55,531 bases of DNA. Origin: Pseudanabaena sp. UWO311 (GTDB taxonomy: Bacteria > Cyanobacteriota > Cyanobacteriia > Pseudanabaenales > Pseudanabaenaceae). The stretch lies in assembly GCF_006937785.1 (NCBI RefSeq), contig NZ_SJEE01000036.1:1-55531 (forward strand), in the 5' to 3' direction. Under the pieces are notes generated by a model. That model ran no database searches and was not told the DNA's origin. It was given only the letters and a program-made list of their open reading frames with translations. The position numbers and the translations under genes were made by a program. Below are positions 1 through 22,993 of this stretch, in pieces. Position 1 is the stretch's first letter, and each line of letters opens with the position of its first letter.

Positions 1-30
1 TACCCCACCCTAACCCTCCCCCTTTTTAAG

Positions 31-1362
31 CTACCGTGTACACACAAGTCGTGAGTGAGGCAAAATCCAACCAAGAAAAATAGCCTCAAAGCGTTGCAGC
101 CCATGGACAATGGTGGGCATACCAGGAGGACGTTGAGAGCGATAACCTGACCAGCCACCAAGACGAGCAATAATCCAAGTTGCCCAAGATAAAGATTGTC
201 GAGGATGAGGATTTTTCTGCTTCACAGTATTGCCTTGCAGGGTCGGTTCAATATTGGACAAGCACTGTAATTGCATATCAGAGAAAGCCAGAGAAGCCGA
301 AATGTTAGGAGTTTCACGCCTCTCAACCATTTGCAAAGTGCGAACTGCGACAGACAAAGCTAAAACGGCAAGCTTCTTAATTGCATCAGGAGACTCTAAC
401 TGAGTCGATTCAATATCTAAGCCCGCTAATTTGAGAGTGGCAAAAAGCTGTTCAATGCGCCATCGCCAACAGTACCACTGGATAATTTGTAGTGCTTTTT
501 CGATAGACAGCACCTCATGAGTGGTGAGAAGTCTCCATAGGATTGGCTCTTGGTCTATAGGTGCTTGAACTTCGCTGACCTCGACTGCGTATATTCGCAA
601 ATGCGGTGGATAATCTGCGACTGGTAAAGATGCAGGGCGTTGAATTTCGATTGGGGTGAAACGTACAGCCAGAAAAGCCTCACGACTTTTGCGCCCAGTT
701 CTTGCATCACTGTGAACTTGCAGCCCGTAAGTACCTTCAATAGACTGTTTTGCCAGATATTCATAAAGTAATTCTGTCTTTTGCCACAGACAGCGATTTT
801 GGCAAGCCCTAATCAGTAGGTGATGATTTAGTTGTTTAGGTACTGTTGCCCATTCTTCATACAAATCTGCTTCACGGTCGCCGATGTGCGTCACCATACT
901 GGCATCTCCGCCATCCAGACATTTAATGCTCCTTTCCGCACTTGCTAGCCATTTGTATGATTCTTTCGCTTCGATTGGCTGTTGTTTATACTTTCTAGCT
1001 TTTTTGTCGGCATGATTCAAGGCTCTTGTCCAAACCTGCACAGTACTCAACCCTAATGGGAATCCTGTCTCTGCATTCAATACTAAGGTTGGATGAATAA
1101 AAAATCCCACATCTTTATTGTTTCCCACTACTCCCAACCCTTTTTCCTTTAGTCGTCCTTTATGGCTTTGGAGGTTAATTTCGCTGGTATCACTTATTGC
1201 TAATACGTGCTTTCCTCCAACGTTCTGCTGGCATTGCTCTGACAAGCTTTTTGTGAGTTCTGATATAGTCACGTTGTCATTTTCTAAAAAACGATAATTT
1301 GCGATTTGTTCGGCTCTGTTTTTACTGATTTGGCGTATATTTACCGATTGGCATTCAACCAT
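31..1362 (-). CDS. IS4 family transposase
   Basis: DDE transposase of 443 residues that would cut and rejoin the ends of the surrounding element. The acidic triad is visible: first Asp in AISDTSEIN, second Asp in HIGDREADLYE, and Glu in the C-terminal YCWRWRIEQLFATLK, which matches the Y-(2)-R-(3)-E-(6)-K signature of IS4 enzymes. The reading frame is open throughout, and the TAG stop lies in the left terminal repeat (31-33), as in many compact insertion sequences. The ATG at 1360-1362 is 136 bp inside the right end, leaving room for a promoter. No frameshift is visible, so it may be active. Confidence 0.9.
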   Translation of the reverse strand: MVECQSVNIRQISKNRAEQIANYRFLENDNVTISELTKSLSEQCQQNVGGKHVLAISDTSEINLQSHKGRLKEKGLGVVGNNKDVGFFIHPTLVLNAETGFPLGLSTVQVWTRALNHADKKARKYKQQPIEAKESYKWLASAERSIKCLDGGDASMVTHIGDREADLYEEWATVPKQLNHHLLIRACQNRCLWQKTELLYEYLAKQSIEGTYGLQVHSDARTGRKSREAFLAVRFTPIEIQRPASLPVADYPPHLRIYAVEVSEVQAPIDQEPILWRLLTTHEVLSIEKALQIIQWYCWRWRIEQLFATLKLAGLDIESTQLESPDAIKKLAVLALSVAVRTLQMVERRETPNISASLAFSDMQLQCLSNIEPTLQGNTVKQKNPHPRQSLSWATWIIARLGGWSGYRSQRPPGMPTIVHGLQRFEAIFLGWILPHSRLVCTR

Positions 1363-5809: not shown

Positions 5810-7285
5810 ATGGCAATTGGCACACTCATCAAAAGTATTCAGGACATCATGCGAAAGGATGTGGGCGTTGATGGTGACGCTCAGAGGATTAGCCAGATTG
5901 TGTGGTTGCTTTTTCTGAAGATTTTTGATGATAAGGAACAGGAATGGGAGTTTACGATTTCGGACTATAAATCTCCGTTGCAGAGCCGTTTTCGTTGGAC
6001 AAATTGGGCAAAGAATCCAGAGGGGATAACGGGTGAAGAGCTGATCGACTTTGTGAACAATGATCTCTTTCCTTCGCTGAAAAAACTTGCTACTGCGGCT
6101 GGGGTGTCGCCATTGGGTAAGGTTGTTGGGGCGGTGTTTGAGGATGCCTATAACTACATGAAGTCGGGGACTTTATTGCGTCAGGTGATTAATAGCATCG
6201 AAAGTGATGTGGATTTTAATTCCTCTAGCGATCGCCATTTGTTTAATGACATCTACGAAAAGATTTTGGCGGATCTGCAATCGGCGGGGAATGCGGGGGA
6301 ATATTACACACCTCGCGCTGTGACTCAGTTTATGGTGGATATTATCAATCCTAAGCTGGGCGAAAAGGTACTTGATCCTGCCTGTGGTACTGGTGGCTTT
6401 TTGACCTGTACAATCGAGCATCTGAATCCGCAGATCAAAAATCCTAGCGATCGCACTTTGCGGGAGGCGACGATTCACGGAGTGGAGAAAAAGCCCCTGC
6501 CGCATATGTTGGCGATGACGAACATGATGTTGCATGGTATTGATGTGCCTAGCAATATTCTCCATGACAATACTTTGAGCCGTCCGCTTAGGGATTACAG
6601 CCCGAAGGATCGGGTGGATATCGTGATCACAAATCCGCCTTTTGGGGGCATGGAGGAGGATGGCATTGAGAGCAATTTCCCGAAAAAGTATCAGACTCGC
6701 GAAACTGCTGATTTGTTTATGGCGTTGATTATGCATTTACTCAAGCCTGATACTGGACGCGCTGCGGTGGTATTGCCCGATGGTTTCTTATTTGGGGAGG
6801 GAACGAAAACTAATCTGAAGCGGGAGCTTCTAGAAGAATTTAATCTGCATACAATCGTGCGTTTGCCGAAGGGCGTGTTTAGTCCCTATACGGGCATTAA
6901 TACGAATATTCTCTTTTTTGAGAAGGGTGAGCCGACTAAGGATGTCTGGTTTTTTGCCCATCCATATCCTGAGGGCTACAAGTCCTATTCGCGTTCTAAG
7001 CCGCTAACGATCGCGGAGTTCGATCGCGAGAAAAAGTGGTGGGGTGGGGCGACGAGAAAGGGGCGCAAGGTGAATGAATATGCTTGGAAGGTTTCGGCAG
7101 CGGAGATTGCGGCTCGGAATTATAATCTTGATTGTAAAAATCCCCATGAGGTGATGGTCAATCATGGCGATCCTGAGGATTTGATGTTGGAATATTTGGA
7201 GATTGCCCGTGAGATGGAGAAGGCGCAAAATGCTTTGAAGCAGGAGTTGATCAATGCTTTGCAACAAACAAGTGGTGGCCTTTAA
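5810..7285 (+). CDS. hsdM: Type I restriction-modification system M subunit (N6-adenine methylase)
   Basis: Protein of 491 residues with the N-terminal HsdM helical domain (about 1-150) and a gamma-class N6-adenine methyltransferase core. The SAM-binding motif DPACGTGGF is at 189-197 and the catalytic NPPF at 275-278. With HsdS it methylates host sites and protects them from HsdR. The start ATG at 5810 is preceded by AAAGGACGC, a fair ribosome site. The stop overlaps the start of the next gene (TAATG at 7283-7287), so the two are translationally coupled. Confidence 0.95.
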   Translation: MAIGTLIKSIQDIMRKDVGVDGDAQRISQIVWLLFLKIFDDKEQEWEFTISDYKSPLQSRFRWTNWAKNPEGITGEELIDFVNNDLFPSLKKLATAAGVSPLGKVVGAVFEDAYNYMKSGTLLRQVINSIESDVDFNSSSDRHLFNDIYEKILADLQSAGNAGEYYTPRAVTQFMVDIINPKLGEKVLDPACGTGGFLTCTIEHLNPQIKNPSDRTLREATIHGVEKKPLPHMLAMTNMMLHGIDVPSNILHDNTLSRPLRDYSPKDRVDIVITNPPFGGMEEDGIESNFPKKYQTRETADLFMALIMHLLKPDTGRAAVVLPDGFLFGEGTKTNLKRELLEEFNLHTIVRLPKGVFSPYTGINTNILFFEKGEPTKDVWFFAHPYPEGYKSYSRSKPLTIAEFDREKKWWGGATRKGRKVNEYAWKVSAAEIAARNYNLDCKNPHEVMVNHGDPEDLMLEYLEIAREMEKAQNALKQELINALQQTSGGL

Positions 7286-14539: not shown

Positions 14540-15931
14540 ATGACAAGCTTTACTTTCTTTCAAAGTCTACGAAATACTGCTTTTGCAAGACTCTATGCTG
14601 CTCAAACAATCAGTTTATTTGGTGATGCCTTAACGTGGTTAGGGTTAGCTTTGCTAGCTTTTGAGTTGGCAGGGAAAGATAGTGGAGTCGTCCTTTCGGT
14701 AGCCCTGACATTAAGAGTGACGGCTTTTGTGATCTTGTCTCCATTAGCAGGGGCGATCGCCGATCGCCTAGATCGCAAGAATATTCTGATCATTACCCAT
14801 ATAGCCCGTATGGCGATTGTGGGAACACTACCATTCATAAATACAATTTGGCAGATTTATGTCTTAGTTTTTACGCTAAATGTATTCAATGCTTTTTTTA
14901 CACCCACCTATCAAGCCACGATTCCTTTAGTCACTGGTAAAAAAGACTATGTACAGGCGATCGCGCTTTCGGCTGCTACCTATCAGTTATTAGGTGTGCT
15001 AGGACCTGGTATCGCAGGAAGTATCTCGAATTGGTTCGGAGCAAGACAGATATTTTTTTTAGATGCAATTTCATTTTTGATCGCAGCAATTTTGGTTTTC
15101 ACAATTCCCAGACAGCTTAAAGTACATCAAAATGAAAATGTAGAGGTAAATATAGGCATTGTTCGTAAAATTTTAAACGATATTAAAGAGGGGACTACCC
15201 GCCTGTTTGAAGACCAATTTATTCGGTATGCACTGCTATTGCAACTTGTAGCCTCGATCGCTGGCGCACAGATTTTAGTTAATACAGTTAGCTATGTACA
15301 GGGAAATTTAAAACTGGGAAACTTGGAATATGGTTGGGTGATGTCTGCTTTTGGGATTGGCGCAACTATCGCAGCCTTGATGGTCGGCGCTATTAGCAAA
15401 AAATGGGAATACACGACTTTAATGTCTTTAGGTGCAGCCTTGATTACGGCGGCAATCCTTCCTGCTAATTATGTGAGCTTGGCTCCTTTGATGTTGCTTT
15501 GGGCGATCGCAGGGATAGGACAAGTTCTGGTAAACCTCCCGACGCAGACTTTAATTGCCGATCGCATTCCTAGCAACTTACAAGGTCGAGTCTATGGCGC
15601 ACATTTTGCGTGGAGTCATCTATGGTGGGCGATCGCCTACCCAATCGCAGGTTGGTTAGGCAGTCACACTTACAACCAATCTTTCTTGTATGGAAGCCTA
15701 ATTGGACTTGTGCTGTTTGTTGGAGTGCAATTACTATTAGCTCCAAAAACTCATGAACATAAGCATGAATATTTATTGCACGAGCATGAGCATTACCATG
15801 ATCAGCATCATCAGCATGAACATTCCGAAGGAATAATCGTAAACGAGCCACATATTCATGCTCATAAACATTTACCAATGCGTCATCGCCATGCTTACTA
15901 TGCCGACATTCATCATTTACACGGCTATTAG
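14540..15931 (+). CDS. MFS exporter with histidine-rich C-terminal tail (NrsD-like)
   Basis: A 463-residue major facilitator of the EntS/MFS_3 type: about 12 hydrophobic segments across 1-405, with the loop ADRLDRKNI after TM2-3 (the A motif region). The last 60 residues are extraordinary: about 20 histidines with Asp/Glu, starting KTHEHKHEYLLHEHEHYHDQ. Histidine tails of this kind bind Ni, Co or Zn; the cyanobacterial nickel exporter NrsD is an MFS protein with such a tail. With an RND pump and an RppA/RppB-like pair nearby, a metal efflux role is likely; nickel specifically is inference. Confidence 0.82.
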   Translation: MTSFTFFQSLRNTAFARLYAAQTISLFGDALTWLGLALLAFELAGKDSGVVLSVALTLRVTAFVILSPLAGAIADRLDRKNILIITHIARMAIVGTLPFINTIWQIYVLVFTLNVFNAFFTPTYQATIPLVTGKKDYVQAIALSAATYQLLGVLGPGIAGSISNWFGARQIFFLDAISFLIAAILVFTIPRQLKVHQNENVEVNIGIVRKILNDIKEGTTRLFEDQFIRYALLLQLVASIAGAQILVNTVSYVQGNLKLGNLEYGWVMSAFGIGATIAALMVGAISKKWEYTTLMSLGAALITAAILPANYVSLAPLMLLWAIAGIGQVLVNLPTQTLIADRIPSNLQGRVYGAHFAWSHLWWAIAYPIAGWLGSHTYNQSFLYGSLIGLVLFVGVQLLLAPKTHEHKHEYLLHEHEHYHDQHHQHEHSEGIIVNEPHIHAHKHLPMRHRHAYYADIHHLHGY

Positions 15932-15992: not shown

Positions 15993-16709
15993 TTATTGAA
16001 TTGCGAGTTTTTTGCTTGTAGAGGCAAGTTCTTCAGCTAGAAATTGACGATAAAGCTTGGGTAAAAAAGGTGTTACCAAATTATCCTCAATCCCACCGCC
16101 CAGACTAGTCCAAACACCAGACAACTCGCTCAAAGCATCTTCAACCCGATTTTGTTTCAGCAAAGTTAAAATGTCAGCATTCCATTGATGATGATCTTTT
16201 AGCCAGCGATAGACCACAATATCTTGGTACTCAGGCTCAAAGCTATAGACTATGCCATCAGAAGTTTCATAGGGGTTTGGATGATATTTGGAAGCTTTTT
16301 CGAGCCAAGTAGAGGTTAGAAATTGATATCGCCCTGATGCTGTCGAACATTTCCCTTTATTCACTTGAGTTTTGATCGGAATACATTGATCAGGATGTTG
16401 ACTCAAATCATGGACATGATCGCCACCGTATAAAAGTGCATAGGTGTTTTTACCACTGGACTCGCTTGCAGAAATAGTTCTCATCAAAGCGCGAATATGG
16501 GGATCACCAGTAGGCATGACCAGTGGCGGTATATCTTCGGAAACTTGCAGATATTTGGTGTTTCTGAGGATATTCTGGGCATTTTGAATGAACCAGGCTA
16601 AGGCAACTAGGCTCAGAATTGAGGCAATATCCCAAATCTTTTGCTTTTTGCTGTATGCCTTATTTTCGCTATTTTGATTATTTTTTTGTTTAGAACGATA
16701 GAAGAACAT
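15993..16709 (-). CDS. Membrane-anchored lambda-type endolysin (GH104-like)
   Basis: A 238-residue protein with a basic N-terminus and one membrane segment (about 26-45), then a domain similar to phage lambda R endolysin: TISASESSG with the likely catalytic Glu83, ALLYGGDHVHDLSQHPD, and STASGRYQFLTSTW. Lambda R is a lytic transglycosylase that opens peptidoglycan. Family members usually come from phages; here a membrane anchor replaces holin-dependent release, and there are no phage neighbours. It might open the wall for insertion of an envelope-spanning complex such as the adjacent RND pump, which is speculative. The extra loop with two cysteines (CIPIKTQVNKGKC) is not in lambda R. Confidence 0.78.
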   Translation of the reverse strand: MFFYRSKQKNNQNSENKAYSKKQKIWDIASILSLVALAWFIQNAQNILRNTKYLQVSEDIPPLVMPTGDPHIRALMRTISASESSGKNTYALLYGGDHVHDLSQHPDQCIPIKTQVNKGKCSTASGRYQFLTSTWLEKASKYHPNPYETSDGIVYSFEPEYQDIVVYRWLKDHHQWNADILTLLKQNRVEDALSELSGVWTSLGGGIEDNLVTPFLPKLYRQFLAEELASTSKKLAIQ

Positions 16710-16871: not shown

Positions 16872-19800
16872 TTATTTAACTAAGTAGTTAGGTATAAGTA
16901 AACTTAAAACCCAGATTGCCGAGTTACTTAATACCTGAGAACGCTCATCTACCTCAATTTCTTCCTCAAGCTTGGTCGCTTGTTGTTTAGGAATCATGAA
17001 CTTACCAAACTTGGCATAGATAGCAGGAATTACCAACAGCGTTAAGGCGGTAGAGGTAAACAAGCCCCCTAAAACCACGATCGCTAAAGGCTGGAGAATC
17101 TCATTCCCAGAACCACCAGCTAACACGAGAGGTAATGTCCCCAATGCTGAGGTCAGTGCGGTCATCAAAATGGCATCAATTCTTTCTAGGGAACCTTTGA
17201 CAATTGTTTCTTTGAGAGGGATACCTTGGGCAAATTTGTTGTTGTAATTGTCTACAAGCAGTAAGCCATTACGGACAGCCACACCAAAAAGGGTAATGAA
17301 GCCCACAAGAGAAGCAACGGACATGACCCCACCACTGACGATGATCGAGACTATCCCTCCCACCAAAGCTAAAGGCAGATTGAGCATAATCGCGATCGTG
17401 GCAGGGAGAGATTTCACCGAGAAGAACATCAACATAGAAATGATGATTGCTGCCAAGATACTAAACAATAGCAAGTTATTTGTGGCTCTTTGTTCCGATT
17501 CAAACTGACCGCCATACTGGATGAAATAACCATTAGGCAACTTCACTTGTTGATTAATTTGAGCTTGAATATCACCGACCACACTGCCCAGATCACGCTC
17601 AGCAACATTGGCAGAGACGACAATCAGCCGTGAGACATTTTCTCGGTTTACAACGTTAGCGCCCATACCATAATCAACCTTAGCTACATCCCGAAGAGCG
17701 ATAGTTTGACCAGTGGGAGTAATTAGGGGAATCGCCCGAATATCATCAAGGCTATTCCGAGCTTGTTCAGTTATGGAGACAGTGATATCGATCAACTGCT
17801 GATTTTGAGCCAGTTGTGATACCACACGACCATTGAGAGCCGTTTCTATCACCTCTGACACCTGTGCCATTGTTAAGCCGTAGGTAGATGCTGCCGTGCG
17901 ATCATATTGAATTTGGACTTGGCGAATTGGTAGCTGAGGTTCTAGCTGTAGATCGACAACTCCTTTAATCGGCTGAATCACATCCCGCACTTGTTCGCCA
18001 ATCTTCCGCAATTCGGCTAGATCGGGACCAAAAATTTTGACAGCGATCGCACTTCTGACACCTGACAGCACTTCATCCATACGGTGCGAAATAAATCCGC
18101 CAATATTTGAAGCTACCCCTGGCAATTTATTAAAAGCCTCTCGGAGTTGTTTAATGCTGGATTCTCGGTCTTCCAAAGCGCGATCGCTCAGTTCTACATC
18201 AACGTGAGCCATACTCACTCCTGCCCCATCAGCGTCCCCAGGAGCGCGTCCAGCCCGAACTTGAACCCATTCGTAGAGGGGATTATCTTTGAGGGAAGTG
18301 TACAAAGTCATCCCTGCTCGGTTGGTCATATCGAGAGAAACTCCAGGGAATAAAACCATAGAGTTCACCATAGATTTTTCCTGAAATTCTGGCAGAAATA
18401 CCCGTCCTAGGGAAGGAACGATCGCAAAAGCTGCCACGAGAGAGGCTAGAGCCACACCAAGAATGATTTGGGGCGATCGAATCGACAGATTAAGTAAGGG
18501 ACGATAGAGATTTTGCGCCCAACGGGAGACAAAGGTGTTTTCTAGAGGTAGGGTTTGACCTGCCAACAAAATGGTACAAAGAGCTGGGGTGAGGGTCATG
18601 GCGACAATCAAGGAAGCGGCGATCGACAGCAAATAAGCCCAACCCATCGGCGCAAAAATATTTCCTTCTACCCCTGTCAAGCTAAAAATCGGTGCGAAGA
18701 CCACAATAATAATTACTGTGGAAAAAACTACAGCTAGACGCACTTCGACAAAGGCATCAAATACTACCTTAAAAGAGGGTTTTGGGTACTCTTGTGTCTG
18801 ATTTTCTCGAAGCTTGCGATAACAGTTTTCCATATAGACGATCGAGTCGTCTACAAAACCGCCTAGGGCAACCACCAAACCGCCTAGGGTCATAGTGTTG
18901 ATCCCTAAACCAAAAGAGTTCATCATCATCATCCCAATCAACAAAGACAGGGGAATGGCACTCAAGGTAATCAGAGCTGTGCGCCAATTCATCAAAAACA
19001 GCAGCATAATCACCGAAACAATGATAATCCCTTCAATCAGAGAGCCGCTTACATTTTTAATCGCCGCATCAATAAAATTTGATTGACGGAAGGTTCGCGC
19101 TAACTGGACATCCGCAGGAAAAGTCTTTTGCAAAGATGCCATCACAGCTTCTACCGATCGCGTCACCTTGGGCGTATCGATTTCGGGCTGCTTATTGATC
19201 ATCATCACGATCGCAGGTTGACCATTAAAACTGCCATCGCCACGCTTTAGGGCAGTACCCGTTTTCACTTGGGCAACATCGCGCAACAGGATCGGCTTGC
19301 CATCACTGACCTTCACTACGGACTGTTGCAGATCGCTAATGGAATTAACCTTACCGCTCCCTTTAATCAGTAACTCTTGACCACCACCAATCAGGAAACC
19401 CGCAGGAGCGCTAGAGTTTGCGCCCTTAGCGGCTTCGGCAACTTCGTTGAGAGATACATTTAGCGATCGCAGTTTCGCAGGATCGACTAGCACCTGTTCT
19501 TGACGCTCATCACCGCCATAGACCGTTACCTGCGTTACCCCAGCCACTGACAAGATCTGATTTTTGAGTGTGCTATCAACGAGACGGCGCAAATCCATCA
19601 ATGAGGTTTTGCCCTGTCCATTCACCGTAAAGGCATATTGCAAAATCGTACCTAGCGGCGAAGCGAGGGGCGAAATTTCTGGCGGATGCACATTTTCAGG
19701 CAGTTGGTTAGTGACCTGTTGTAATCGCTCTGTCACCGATTGACGCGCCTTGTAAATATCAGCGTCCTGATCGAAGACCACATTCACCATCGACAGCCCC

Positions 19801-20075
19801 ACCTTGGAGGACGATCGCACAATCGTCACCCCTGGCAAGCCATTGACTGCGCTCTCAATGGGAATCGTGATTTGCGATTCCACTTCTTCGGGCGCAAGTC
19901 CCGTTGCTTTGGTGTGAATATCGACTTGAGGCGGTGCAAATTCGGGGAACACATCTAGGGGCATTTGTGTAACCGTGAAAACGCCCCAAAATGTTATAAG
20001 AACTGAGCAAATGACTATCAACCAACGCTGAATGATCGATCCTTTCAATATTTGGTCTAAAAGAGAGTTAAACAT
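16872..20075 (-). CDS. Heavy-metal efflux RND permease (CusA/CzcA family)
   Basis: A 1067-residue inner-membrane pump of the HME-RND subfamily: TM1 near 17-35, the conserved FPEFAPPQVDIHT start of the periplasmic porter, a first TM block at about 340-540 with GGLVVALGGFVDDSIVYMEN (TM4 acidic residues for proton relay), a second periplasmic loop, and the last TM block ending about 1035. Length matches CzcA/CusA. It exports divalent or monovalent metal ions with an adaptor and outer membrane channel. The CusB-like gene lies 5 bp upstream on the same strand and clearly forms an operon. No TolC-type channel gene is present. The 25-residue tail after the last TM has no known motif. Confidence 0.93.
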   Translation of the reverse strand: MFNSLLDQILKGSIIQRWLIVICSVLITFWGVFTVTQMPLDVFPEFAPPQVDIHTKATGLAPEEVESQITIPIESAVNGLPGVTIVRSSSKVGLSMVNVVFDQDADIYKARQSVTERLQQVTNQLPENVHPPEISPLASPLGTILQYAFTVNGQGKTSLMDLRRLVDSTLKNQILSVAGVTQVTVYGGDERQEQVLVDPAKLRSLNVSLNEVAEAAKGANSSAPAGFLIGGGQELLIKGSGKVNSISDLQQSVVKVSDGKPILLRDVAQVKTGTALKRGDGSFNGQPAIVMMINKQPEIDTPKVTRSVEAVMASLQKTFPADVQLARTFRQSNFIDAAIKNVSGSLIEGIIIVSVIMLLFLMNWRTALITLSAIPLSLLIGMMMMNSFGLGINTMTLGGLVVALGGFVDDSIVYMENCYRKLRENQTQEYPKPSFKVVFDAFVEVRLAVVFSTVIIIVVFAPIFSLTGVEGNIFAPMGWAYLLSIAASLIVAMTLTPALCTILLAGQTLPLENTFVSRWAQNLYRPLLNLSIRSPQIILGVALASLVAAFAIVPSLGRVFLPEFQEKSMVNSMVLFPGVSLDMTNRAGMTLYTSLKDNPLYEWVQVRAGRAPGDADGAGVSMAHVDVELSDRALEDRESSIKQLREAFNKLPGVASNIGGFISHRMDEVLSGVRSAIAVKIFGPDLAELRKIGEQVRDVIQPIKGVVDLQLEPQLPIRQVQIQYDRTAASTYGLTMAQVSEVIETALNGRVVSQLAQNQQLIDITVSITEQARNSLDDIRAIPLITPTGQTIALRDVAKVDYGMGANVVNRENVSRLIVVSANVAERDLGSVVGDIQAQINQQVKLPNGYFIQYGGQFESEQRATNNLLLFSILAAIIISMLMFFSVKSLPATIAIMLNLPLALVGGIVSIIVSGGVMSVASLVGFITLFGVAVRNGLLLVDNYNNKFAQGIPLKETIVKGSLERIDAILMTALTSALGTLPLVLAGGSGNEILQPLAIVVLGGLFTSTALTLLVIPAIYAKFGKFMIPKQQATKLEEEIEVDERSQVLSNSAIWVLSLLIPNYLVK

Positions 20076-20080
20076 TTAAA

Positions 20081-20743
20081 TTAGCCCTTCTTACCATTGC
20101 CACGAGTCACCGCAAAAACAAGTACGCCTGCGGCGATTAATAATGCACCACCACCTGCGATTGAGGCTTGCATGATCGGAAATTCACCTTCTTGGCTATG
20201 GGGTTTACCCTCTGCATGGGCTTGAGCATGGGCTGGATCTGTGCTGGTTTTAGCTGCATCGGTTGCGGTCGCATCTGTTTTAGCAATAGGAGCTTTCGAT
20301 GGATTCGCAGCAGTAGTAGTGGGTTTAGTTTTACGAGACTCGGCATAGAGGGATAGACTGCCTTGAGTAACCAGCTTTTCGCCAACGGATAAACCATCGG
20401 TAATCTCAATTAAATCGCCCTTAGTTGAGCCAGTTTTCACAGGTACTGGCTCATAGAAATTTTCGTACTGCACAAATACTAATTGCTTGCCATCGGCATC
20501 CACTAGCGCTGTCACAGGAATCAGCACCGCTTTACCACCACCCTTTTCAGGGGCGATCGCCTTGACCTCAATGCCCAACTGTGTATCGGTAGTAGCATTT
20601 ACCTTGACTCTCTCGATGCCGCCCGTTGCCTGAAATTCATCACCATGTCCAACATGGGCAAAGGCGATCGCAGGGATACTCAGGGTCAAAGCCGTCGCTA
20701 ATAATGGGCTAAATATAGGACTAAACAAAGAAAACTTTTTCAT
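20081..20743 (-). CDS. Minimal CusB/CzcB-like periplasmic adaptor lacking the hairpin domain
   Basis: A 220-residue protein with a signal peptide (about 1-29, cleaved after IAFA), then HVGHGDEF, a region like the beta-barrel/membrane-proximal parts of metal adaptors (VLIPVTALVDADGKQLVFV, then DLIEITDGLSVGEKLVTQGS), an Ala/Thr/His-rich linker (about 130-185) and a C-terminal membrane segment (about 192-213). CusB-type adaptors are about 380-500 residues and carry an alpha-helical hairpin and lipoyl domain that reach the outer membrane channel; both are missing. A C-terminal anchor is also unusual. It may therefore modulate the pump instead of bridging to TolC. The gene starts the RND operon. 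Confidence 0.75.
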   Translation of the reverse strand: MKKFSLFSPIFSPLLATALTLSIPAIAFAHVGHGDEFQATGGIERVKVNATTDTQLGIEVKAIAPEKGGGKAVLIPVTALVDADGKQLVFVQYENFYEPVPVKTGSTKGDLIEITDGLSVGEKLVTQGSLSLYAESRKTKPTTTAANPSKAPIAKTDATATDAAKTSTDPAHAQAHAEGKPHSQEGEFPIMQASIAGGGALLIAAGVLVFAVTRGNGKKG

Positions 20744-20858: not shown

Positions 20859-20879
20859 GTGGTTGATTTGCCTAATGCG

Positions 20880-21581
20880 ATGCGAATTTTGCTTGTAGAA
20901 GATGAAATAGACTTGGGAACAGCAATTAAGCAGGTCTTAGTTTGTGAAAAATATGTTGTGGATTGGGTAACAGATGGTGCTCAGGCTTGGTACTATCTCG
21001 AAAATCAATGGACAGACTATTCTGTCGCTATTTTCGATCTGCTACTACCAAAACTGTCAGGGCTAGAACTCTGCCAAAAATTGCGATCGCATCAAAATCC
21101 TTTACCCGTACTAATGCTCACTGCCCTCGGTCAGCCTGAAAATCGCATCGCAGGACTAGACGCTGGAGCTGATGACTATTTGGTAAAGCCATTTGTGATG
21201 GAGGAACTTTTAGCAAGATTACGCGCATTACAAAGGCGATCGCCGCAATTACAGTCTCAAACCCTAACAGTAGGTAAATTCTCACTAGATTATGCGAACA
21301 ACGCGCTATTAGTGGCGACAGAGGCTCAAGCTCATCAAGCAGCACAGGTAATTCCCTTAACAACAAAAGAATTTCAAATTCTCACCTATCTCATGCAAAA
21401 TTGCGATCGCATTATTTCGGGCAGCAAAATCCGTAACCAACTCTGGGATCTTGATGAAGAACCAGTTAGCAATGTGGTCGCCGCCCAAATGCGTCTATTG
21501 CGGCGAAAATTAGCTAACTATGGCTGTGATTGCCCGATTGAAACAATTCCCAGCCAAGGCTATCGATTTAATACCCATTAA
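20880..21581 (+). CDS. OmpR-family response regulator, RppA/NrsR-like
   Basis: A 233-residue regulator from ATG 20880 (MRILLVEDE is the natural start; a GTG at 20859 would add seven residues). The receiver domain has Asp53 as phosphoacceptor in FDLLLPKLSG and KPF near 104; the C-terminal winged helix ends IETIPSQGYRF. It resembles cyanobacterial RppA/NrsR, which in Synechocystis controls the nickel nrs operon. It reads away from the RND operon and is followed by its kinase, so it probably senses metal and switches on the pump genes. Confidence 0.88.
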   Translation: MRILLVEDEIDLGTAIKQVLVCEKYVVDWVTDGAQAWYYLENQWTDYSVAIFDLLLPKLSGLELCQKLRSHQNPLPVLMLTALGQPENRIAGLDAGADDYLVKPFVMEELLARLRALQRRSPQLQSQTLTVGKFSLDYANNALLVATEAQAHQAAQVIPLTTKEFQILTYLMQNCDRIISGSKIRNQLWDLDEEPVSNVVAAQMRLLRRKLANYGCDCPIETIPSQGYRFNTH

Positions 21582-21605
21582 TGGGCGGCGCGAAGCGCCG
21601 CCCAT
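21581..21605. promoter_or_regulatory. GC-rich hairpin between regulator and kinase genes
   Basis: Perfect stem ATGGGCGGCGC, loop GAA, complement GCGCCGCCCAT. It starts inside the TAA of the regulator (21579-21581) and ends 11 bp before the kinase ATG. There is no U-tract, so it is not a simple terminator; it could set the expression ratio of the two proteins or stabilise the upstream mRNA. Confidence 0.5.
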
Positions 21606-21616
21606 CAAGATCAATT

Positions 21617-22993
21617 ATGAACACACATCTATTATTTCGTCGTAGCCGAACTCGTCTCGCCTTTTGGTATGCGGGAGTGATGGCTGTAATCTTGAGTTTA
21701 TCGGGATTTAGTATGTATCGCTTTCTGATTCAATCCAATTGGGAAGCGATGGAACGGGAAATGGAGTCAATCGCAGGGACTTTACACGATAGTTTAGAAC
21801 CGATGTTACCTGCTTCCGAGGAGCCAACTTCTATTTTACGGCGAATTTTGCCAGAACTCTGTTTAGTAGACCAGCCTTGTAATATCAGCCCCACGCTGAT
21901 TCAACGTCATACCACAGGCATTAGCGATCGCAGTACTTACTACATTCGCCTCTTCAATCATCAAGGGAAATTACTAGCTTTTTCCCCTAGTCAAATCATT
22001 GCTGAACTACCTAAGCGTTTAATAACTACACCTTGGCAAACCTTCGAGAGTTCTCAGGGTATCCGCTATCACCAGTTCACGATTATCTTGCATAGCCATG
22101 ATGTGAAGAATCAAACCCATCGACACAGTACTCAACCATCTTGGGGATACTTGCAACTCGGTCGGAATTTAGAACCCTTTGATGCAGAAGTAAAGCGCAT
22201 CAAAATAATTTTGGCGATCGGCTTTCCGATCGCATTGTTATTAATTGCTCTCTCTAGTTGGTGGCTATCTAAATTAGCAATGCAGCCTATTTATCAGTCC
22301 TATCAACAGCAGCAACAGTTCACCGCTAATGCTGCCCATGAATTGCGATCGCCTCTGGCAAGTCTTCTCGCCACCGTCGAAGCGATCTTGCGAGTACCGC
22401 CAGTTAATCCCGAAGATACGCAAACCATGCTCTACAAAGTAGAAAAGCAAGGAAGACGCTTGAGTAACTTAATTGCTGATTTACTATTTCTATCTAGCCT
22501 TGAGCAAAACTCATCCCCAAAGCCTTGGCAACGCTGTTGCTTAAATGATTTGATTAGCGATCTGACCGAAGAATTTTTGGAACTTGCCGCAGCGTCTAAT
22601 ATTGATTTAACTAATCAAATGCCTGATCGCGAGATTTATGTTTTGGGCAATGAATCTGAACTTTATCGCCTTGTTTCCAACTTAATTGTCAATGCAATTC
22701 AGTACACGCCTAGTAATGGTCATGTTGAAATCAGCCTATTTGAAGAAGATCGCAAAGCAGTAATTACTGTGAAAGATACGGGAATCGGGATTGCTCCAAC
22801 CGAACAAACGCGCATTTTTGATCGCTTTTATCGTATCGATAGCGATCGCTCTAGTAAAACAGGGGGAACAGGTTTGGGCTTGGCAATTGTGCAAGCGATC
22901 GCCAAAAGACATAACTCAAATCTCAAGGTTACCAGCCAAGTGGGGAAAGGAAGCATTTTCAATCTAGAATTGCCGATAGATTGCACTGTATAG
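21617..22993 (+). CDS. Sensor histidine kinase, RppB/NrsS-like
   Basis: A 458-residue membrane kinase. TM1 about 15-38, a periplasmic region of about 155 residues, and TM2 about 193-216. The phosphoacceptor is His241 in NAAHELRSPLAS; the ATPase part has NLIVNAIQYTPSNG (N box), DTGIGIA (G1) and [10 protein letters not shown] (G2). ATG 21617 is chosen; the open frame from 21581 runs through the intergenic hairpin and is not credible as coding. The periplasmic part has a CLVDQPC cysteine pair that could bind a metal or form a disulfide. Partner of the regulator just upstream. Confidence 0.88.
   Translation: MNTHLLFRRSRTRLAFWYAGVMAVILSLSGFSMYRFLIQSNWEAMEREMESIAGTLHDSLEPMLPASEEPTSILRRILPELCLVDQPCNISPTLIQRHTTGISDRSTYYIRLFNHQGKLLAFSPSQIIAELPKRLITTPWQTFESSQGIRYHQFTIILHSHDVKNQTHRHSTQPSWGYLQLGRNLEPFDAEVKRIKIILAIGFPIALLLIALSSWWLSKLAMQPIYQSYQQQQQFTANAAHELRSPLASLLATVEAILRVPPVNPEDTQTMLYKVEKQGRRLSNLIADLLFLSSLEQNSSPKPWQRCCLNDLISDLTEEFLELAAASNIDLTNQMPDREIYVLGNESELYRLVSNLIVNAIQYTPSNGHVEISLFEEDRKAVITVKDTGIGIAPTEQTRIFDRFYRIDSDRSSKTGGTGLGLAIVQAIAKRHNSNLKVTSQVGKGSIFNLELPIDCTV

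Follow-up and report, generated by a model that had tools for sequence, protein, structure and literature searches.

A short adaptor reduced to the membrane-proximal domain accompanies an RND metal pump and is conserved among cyanobacteria

The stretch of Pseudanabaena sp. UWO311 DNA analysed here (the window, 55,531 nucleotides) carries an RND pump gene and, next to it, a short gene, nrsB, whose product is an adaptor with the membrane-proximal domain (MPD) only. The genes of the locus are the following:

14540..15931, plus strand: nrsD, MFS permease with a His-rich C-terminus, convergent with the operon here
15993..16709, minus strand: nrsC, endolysin-like peptidoglycan hydrolase (phage lambda lysozyme and phrog_90 matches)
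16872..20075, minus strand: nrsA, HME-RND pump of the CusA/CzcA family (TIGR00914, 826.5 bits, cut-off 701.45)
20081..20743, minus strand: nrsB, MPD-only adaptor of 220 aa (profile matches, alignment, AlphaFold model, alignment with CusB and ZneB)
20859..21581, plus strand: rppA/nrsR, response regulator, divergent (NF041734, 376.6 bits, cut-off 250)
21581..22993, plus strand: rppB/nrsS, sensor kinase (NF041735, 672.5 bits, cut-off 400)

In the open reading frame list of the window, nrsB starts with ATG and is separated by 5 bases from the pump frame and by 115 bases from rppA. The nrsRS pair diverges from nrsB-nrsA-nrsC and an nrsD is present, as in the nrsBACD order, although nrsD is convergent here and not collinear. 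As judged from its sequence, this is an nrs-type nickel/cobalt efflux locus and the 220-aa protein is its NrsB, which the initial annotation had not recognised and which was identified in the present analysis. For Synechocystis, nickel-dependent expression and resistance of nrsBACD have been described (PMC4284471, PMC4182526), as have RppA (sll0797) as a regulator of this operon (PMC13421787) and NrsD as an MFS-type permease whose C-terminus is rich in histidine (PMC4284471). A 2026 review puts nrsBACD as an ABC transporter (PMC13421787), whereas the sequence and PMC4284471 indicate RND plus MFS. NrsA, which scores above the TIGR00914 cut-off and thus belongs to the HME-RND pumps, matches ZneA over residues 15-1021 and CusA over residues 5-1021 among PDB entries. 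NrsC (238 aa) is not recognised by Pfam; it matches phage lambda lysozyme (3d3d/1am7, E ~3e-4) and the phrog_90 endolysin profile (4.9e-15), has an N-terminal hydrophobic stretch that reads as a membrane anchor, and at other loci the proteins in its position are annotated as glycoside hydrolase. The CopR direct repeat and the RppA motif, both taken from papers, are absent from the gap between nrsB and rppA, and the single match of each in the window lies outside this gap, at chance level. A second pump related to NrsA and 56% identical to it is encoded in the same genome (G000:C15; L085:4214-7357); it has an RppAB-like pair of its own and stands without an adjacent adaptor gene.

Within NrsB, the following parts were distinguished:

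20657..20743, minus strand: signal peptide (residues 1-29; its hydrophobic segment begins at residue 10)
20633..20656, minus strand: HVGHGDEF, residues 30-37, putative mature N-terminus and candidate metal-binding motif
20327..20623, minus strand: MPD, residues 41-139 (AlphaFold model and CusB/ZneB alignment)
20162..20326, minus strand: disordered linker rich in Ala/Thr and containing 3 His, residues 140-194 (pLDDT, composition)
20105..20161, minus strand: membrane helix at the C-terminus, residues 195-213 (the 17 residues starting at 195 average 2.29 in hydropathy)

The signal peptide would probably be cleaved after AFA, leaving HVGHGDEF at the mature N-terminus, where this motif may bind metal. 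The best profile match of the protein, residues 49-130 against positions 186-268 of the 271 of TIGR00999 (CzcB/NccB family), covers the end of the profile only and reaches 51 bits, well below the cut-off of 319.3, and the second, TIGR01730, is again confined to the profile end (232-313 of 322). Pfam gave no match at E<=1 for the 220-aa protein, and PF00529 was weakly touched by 11 of 42 family members (best 8e-4). In the AlphaFold model (42 sequences, mean pLDDT 66) only residues 41 to about 135 are confident; pLDDT stays below 50 over 143-199, and a helix at 201-212 is of low confidence. Structure alignment places the modelled domain on known adaptors: residues 44-140 superpose on CusB 80..393 (Z 12.4, 97 residues, rmsd 2.4) and residues 44-138 on ZneB 16..350 (Z 11.8), against a Z near 3 for unrelated rows. 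The adaptor MPD is formed from both ends of the chain, according to the review PMC8277102, and because both chain ends of CusB and ZneB are covered, NrsB has a complete MPD from which the barrel, lipoyl and hairpin parts are excised. Indeed, neither BLAST nor the joint alignment revealed any beta-barrel, lipoyl or alpha-hairpin sequence between its signal peptide and MPD. Of the domains that mark an RND periplasmic adaptor NrsB has the MPD and lacks the other three, and it also falls outside the hairpin-less BesA-type class, in which lipoyl and beta-barrel are kept. In NrsB, therefore, an RND adaptor has been pared down to the membrane-proximal domain. The initial annotation had seen beside the RND pump an adaptor without hairpin and lipoyl domains, keeping only membrane-proximal parts; profiles and structure alignment bear this out and add the beta-barrel to what is missing, and the model covers the whole MPD. 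Its remark that the protein could not obviously reach an outer-membrane channel is likewise supported, since a protein with the MPD only cannot do so by itself.

The short form is not a peculiarity of this genome. The 54 loci drawn from genome contigs comprised 47 cyanobacterial short forms and seven ordinary long adaptors (345-479 aa) from records of other phyla. Alignment A1 consists of the window protein and those of 41 named loci out of the 47; the six omitted are L037, in which the start is extended upstream, L041, a near-copy, L057 and L058, which run off the locus with open ends, L068 (contig end) and L073 (frameshifted). This 42-row alignment has 38 invariant columns, among them H30, G32, H33, G34, D35, E36 and F37, and the N-terminal hydrophobic segment, the motif and the C-terminal helix occur in every row. 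Histidines in the linker, which the initial annotation called Ala/Thr/His-rich, are less constant, being present in 27 of the 42 and lacking in 15. In the window's class, 136 of 291 sampled genomes match the family profile at 1e-5 and 44 have the short form; these 44 match at E 3.1e-25 or better and include a fragment (G128) and a separate second type (G017), the next genome (1.1e-20) having a frame of 566 aa. Among the matches listed, the other profile-matching genomes have long forms, G058 only a remnant. RecA rows without an individually significant stretch were ignored. Some copies of the cluster lie on plasmid-labelled records (L028, L145, L147, L219 and L220), one of which is predicted to be conjugative. 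Chondrocystis NIES-4102 has two tandem nrsB genes (L219:5553-5963 and 6001-6663), the first of which stops at the end of the MPD and has neither linker nor membrane helix.

The short NrsB is thus a conserved design across many cyanobacteria and not a broken gene, and truncation or assembly artefact was ruled out by the conservation across 47 loci and the 38 invariant columns. That it is a decaying remnant, a frameshift or a mis-annotated fragment of a full-length adaptor is refuted on the same grounds, and we give this reading practically no weight. It is true that NrsB clearly descends from a longer protein, that L073 is frameshifted and that the L199 genome has a remnant of a long form, but the N-terminal segment, motif and C-terminal helix are intact throughout the alignment, the pumps with short adaptors form a single deep clade, and there is no room for a lost 5' part of nrsB because the divergent rppA is so close.

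Linkage to an RND pump is equally regular, a pump adjoining the short adaptor in 42 of the 47 named loci. Of the other five, three have less than 0.5 kb downstream and L072 and L073 are without a pump, so that the proportion becomes 42/44 where more than 0.5 kb is available; the pump is a remnant in L066 and a broken frame in L065. In one further genome, G098, nrsA is split into two frames about 1.26 kb apart (L131:8440-12823). The gene rppA is present in 40 of the 47 loci. This linkage bears on the proposal that NrsB is a metal chaperone or buffer, free in the periplasm or tethered to the membrane, with no action on the pump, for which the signal peptide, the invariant HxGHGDEF and the histidines in 27 of the 42 linkers could be quoted. 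We regard it as improbable, since a pump adjoins in nearly all informative loci, the conserved part besides the motif is the MPD, a pump-contact fold, and 15 linkers are devoid of histidine.

The origin of NrsB can be read from its nearest full-length relatives. A CopB-like adaptor encoded elsewhere in the same genome (G000:C52, 520 aa, PF16576) aligns with it by BLAST in two blocks, NrsB 12-63 with 7-63 and 49-149 with 357-458, and the gap between them is visible in the joint alignment with full-length forms. NrsB descends from a full-length CopB-like adaptor by the loss of about 290 internal residues, i.e., the beta-barrel, lipoyl and hairpin parts. The strict HxGHGxEF motif is found in 17 of 26 full-length cyanobacterial relatives, and its being common to full-length adaptors is a further point against a free chaperone. 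A C-terminal hydrophobic helix is carried by 25 of these 26; therefore, the tail is ancestral, and, contrary to the initial annotation, the linker and membrane helix come down from cyanobacterial full-length adaptors and were not added. Short and long forms differ within the MPD, where, for example, Y93, S119, E122 and R137-K138 (42/42 short forms) stand against N, F, D and L-R (24/24 long forms); L198 (long branch) and L206 (no anchor) were excluded from this comparison.

In a tree of 51 pumps, built by a quick method with SH-aLRT as the only support, all but one of the 28 short-adaptor pumps (27) group in a single clade (SH-aLRT 100) nested among pumps with full-length adaptors, and the 20 pumps that stand with a CopB-like adaptor are all outside this NrsA clade. 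Three loci with a long adaptor did not enter the tree: L189, whose pump frame is split, L196, which has no pump in the stretch, and L199, a remnant. The 28th short-adaptor pump, L144 of genome G017, is also outside the clade, and the pump there, one of the CopB-associated group, is accompanied by another MPD-only adaptor, encoded at L144:7947-8573. An AU test rejects a single clade for all short forms (p 0.0004), the G017 row being a long branch. A second, independent reduction has apparently occurred in this genome, which we keep as a lead only because of that long branch and because it is a single, 88% complete genome with no close relative among 387 genomes.

If NrsB cannot bridge the periplasm itself, a full-length partner might do so. 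The separate full-length adaptor and TolC that the initial annotation proposed to look for are both found in the window genome, at C52 and C59, respectively, the adaptor without a pump beside it. The annotation's own idea stood to fall with such a partner; the full-length adaptor exists, but nothing marks it as the partner, and the type is absent from many short-form genomes. It is found in 20 of the 44 (E 8.1e-92 or better) and lacking in 24 (5.2e-19 at best), 18 of which are at least 90% complete; leaving out G017 gives 23 of 43. Because of these 24 genomes, the CopB-like adaptor is no obligate partner of NrsB, and C52 was rejected as such. There is also no association of full-length and short forms (20/44 vs 92/247, Fisher p 0.32, a different profile having been used to score each group). 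The full-length adaptor has a pump beside or near it in most of 20 stretches that were read, and a BLAST search of the fetched flanks of the 47 named loci found no CopB-like adaptor, a distant adaptor lying in L030. G021 is instructive: no pump other than NrsA exceeds the TIGR00914 cut-off there, and the four HlyD-type matches of this genome are all on other contigs; other HlyD-like adaptors occur in all 11 short-form genomes searched with PF16576.

Some lineages do, however, encode a full-length adaptor beside nrsBA, and for that reason the main rival to our interpretation is a two-adaptor machine, in which NrsB would be one half of a mixed ring and a full-length CopB-like or HlyD-like adaptor, encoded elsewhere, would make the connection to TolC, much as TriA and TriB work together. 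In the genome family f2, a full-length CzcB-like adaptor directly follows nrsA in five of seven loci (nrsB - nrsA - CzcB-like adaptor in L135, L136, L137, L138 and L140), followed in L135 and L140 by a different permease with a His-rich tail, and in three same-genus genomes (G137, G144 and G206) no more than 2.6 kb separates nrsD from a CopB-like adaptor. The window genome has both the CopB-like adaptor and TolC, NrsC could make a passage through the wall for a spanning complex, and triABC is reported to carry two adaptor genes (PMC8277102). We consider such a machine unlikely, though a serious candidate, because the CopB-like adaptor is missing from 24 of the 44 genomes and from the flanks of all 47 loci, and the pumps that stand with it are outside the NrsA clade. 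A split adaptor, with a companion lacking the MPD, was considered as well; this idea was dropped because the C-terminal end of the gene product after nrsA in f2 looks, by eye, like an MPD too.

The pump itself may retain a trace of the reduced adaptor, in the following part of NrsA:

17676..17915, minus strand: NrsA residues 721-800, where relaxation in the NrsA clade is strongest (conservation comparison)

These residues are the lowest window at three window sizes when 20 NrsA are compared with 19 pumps having full-length adaptors, a comparison that excludes the seven f2 pumps and L198 (long branch). They presumably correspond to the C-terminal docking subdomain, the docking subdomain limits being approximate. 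Over that subdomain (706-800), 2.1% of circular shifts are as low, whereas the N-terminal docking subdomain displays no relaxation (46% of shifts as low). The relaxed stretch is compatible with a loosening of the contacts between NrsA and an adaptor's barrel and lipoyl domains and, although a single modest result, speaks against the bridging by a second, full-length adaptor discussed above.

Taken together, we favor, at slightly better than even, the interpretation of NrsB as a pump-bound subunit that loads NrsA with metal and activates it without bridging to TolC. The protein would be anchored in the plasma membrane with its MPD on the porter domain of NrsA, its N-terminal histidine motif would collect periplasmic Ni(II)/Co(II) and pass the metal to the pump, and NrsB would switch NrsA on. 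It would make no TolC bridge, NrsA would be independent of a dedicated CopB-like bridging adaptor, and NrsBA would therefore act as a pair for loading and gating, connected to the outer membrane optionally or not at all. Of the roles suggested by the initial annotation, pump regulator is close to this interpretation, and chaperone, which the present data would not tell apart from a pump subunit, is possible. Such activity has precedents, as the CusB fragment 1-61, which comprises the metal site and not the MPD, is reported to restore copper resistance to a cusB deletion mutant, with reduced efficiency, and to be competent for CusCBA activation (PMC6235853), and MPDs have been connected with how substrate is presented and with MacB activation (PMC8277102). 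Counting against a loading-and-gating pair are the NrsC hydrolase in the operon, which fits a wall-crossing machine, the CzcB-like adaptors of f2, the CopB-like ones near nrsD and the HlyD-like adaptors possibly acting in trans, as well as the N-terminal docking subdomain of NrsA, which is not relaxed. Only tentatively do we go as far as proposing that the MPD-only NrsB is a pure loading/gating subunit, that the NrsA lineage has come loose from a TolC-bridging adaptor, and that the reduction happened at least twice.

A conserved MPD-only adaptor parts two functions that are normally joined, the loading or switching of the pump and the bridging to the outer membrane, each of which is testable with natural parts in the tractable Synechocystis, and it is relevant to the question whether an HME-RND pump can do its work when not connected to the outer membrane. 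The nrs operon and its role with nickel were already known, the architecture of its adaptor being what is new: NrsB as an MPD-only adaptor was not found in the open literature searched, outside the scope of which lies the original paper of 2000, and NrsBAC is called there simply an RND efflux system, or the operon one of nickel resistance (e.g., PMC4284471, PMC4182526).

The closest known system is Synechocystis nrsBACD/nrsRS (NrsB = slr0793), which shares with the window the gene order, RppA/RppB (NrsR/NrsS) and the His-tailed MFS permease; the likeness of the window protein to slr0793 is based on locus layout and the annotation of relatives. The same order (rppB-rppA / short protein - RND - glycoside hydrolase - MFS) is annotated on pSYLC of Synechocystis PCC 6714, where the short protein has 219 aa and two small genes stand between rppA and the short gene, and on plasmid ABRG53b of Pseudanabaena ABRG5-3, and the Chondrocystis record names a family member nrsB. 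The nearest full-length relatives are the CopB-type adaptors, and CopB of the copper system copBAC (Synechocystis pSYSX) shares with NrsB the N-terminal motif, MPD, tail and regulator type. Unlike NrsB, which has about 290 residues fewer, CopB is of full length (525 aa annotated), with barrel-sandwich and hairpin, and on pSYSX it stands with its own pump and rppAB pair, CopB-associated pumps being outside the NrsA clade. According to one review, MPD, beta-barrel, lipoyl and hairpin are the core domains of all RND-associated adaptors, and the odd case named in reviews, including that one, is BesA of Borrelia burgdorferi, which is without the hairpin only (PMC8277102). BesA resembles NrsB in this absence but retains the lipoyl and beta-barrel domains, of which NrsB has neither (PMC3807786). 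What NrsB resembles most by sequence profile and Foldseek is the 180-residue NMR construct of SilB (5a4g), although its Z was only 8.4 in a second structure alignment; by its entry title, this construct joins an N-terminal metal site to an MPD, an arrangement that occurs naturally in NrsB. Both 5a4g and CusB-NT (1-61, a metal site without MPD) are laboratory constructs from Cu/Ag systems.
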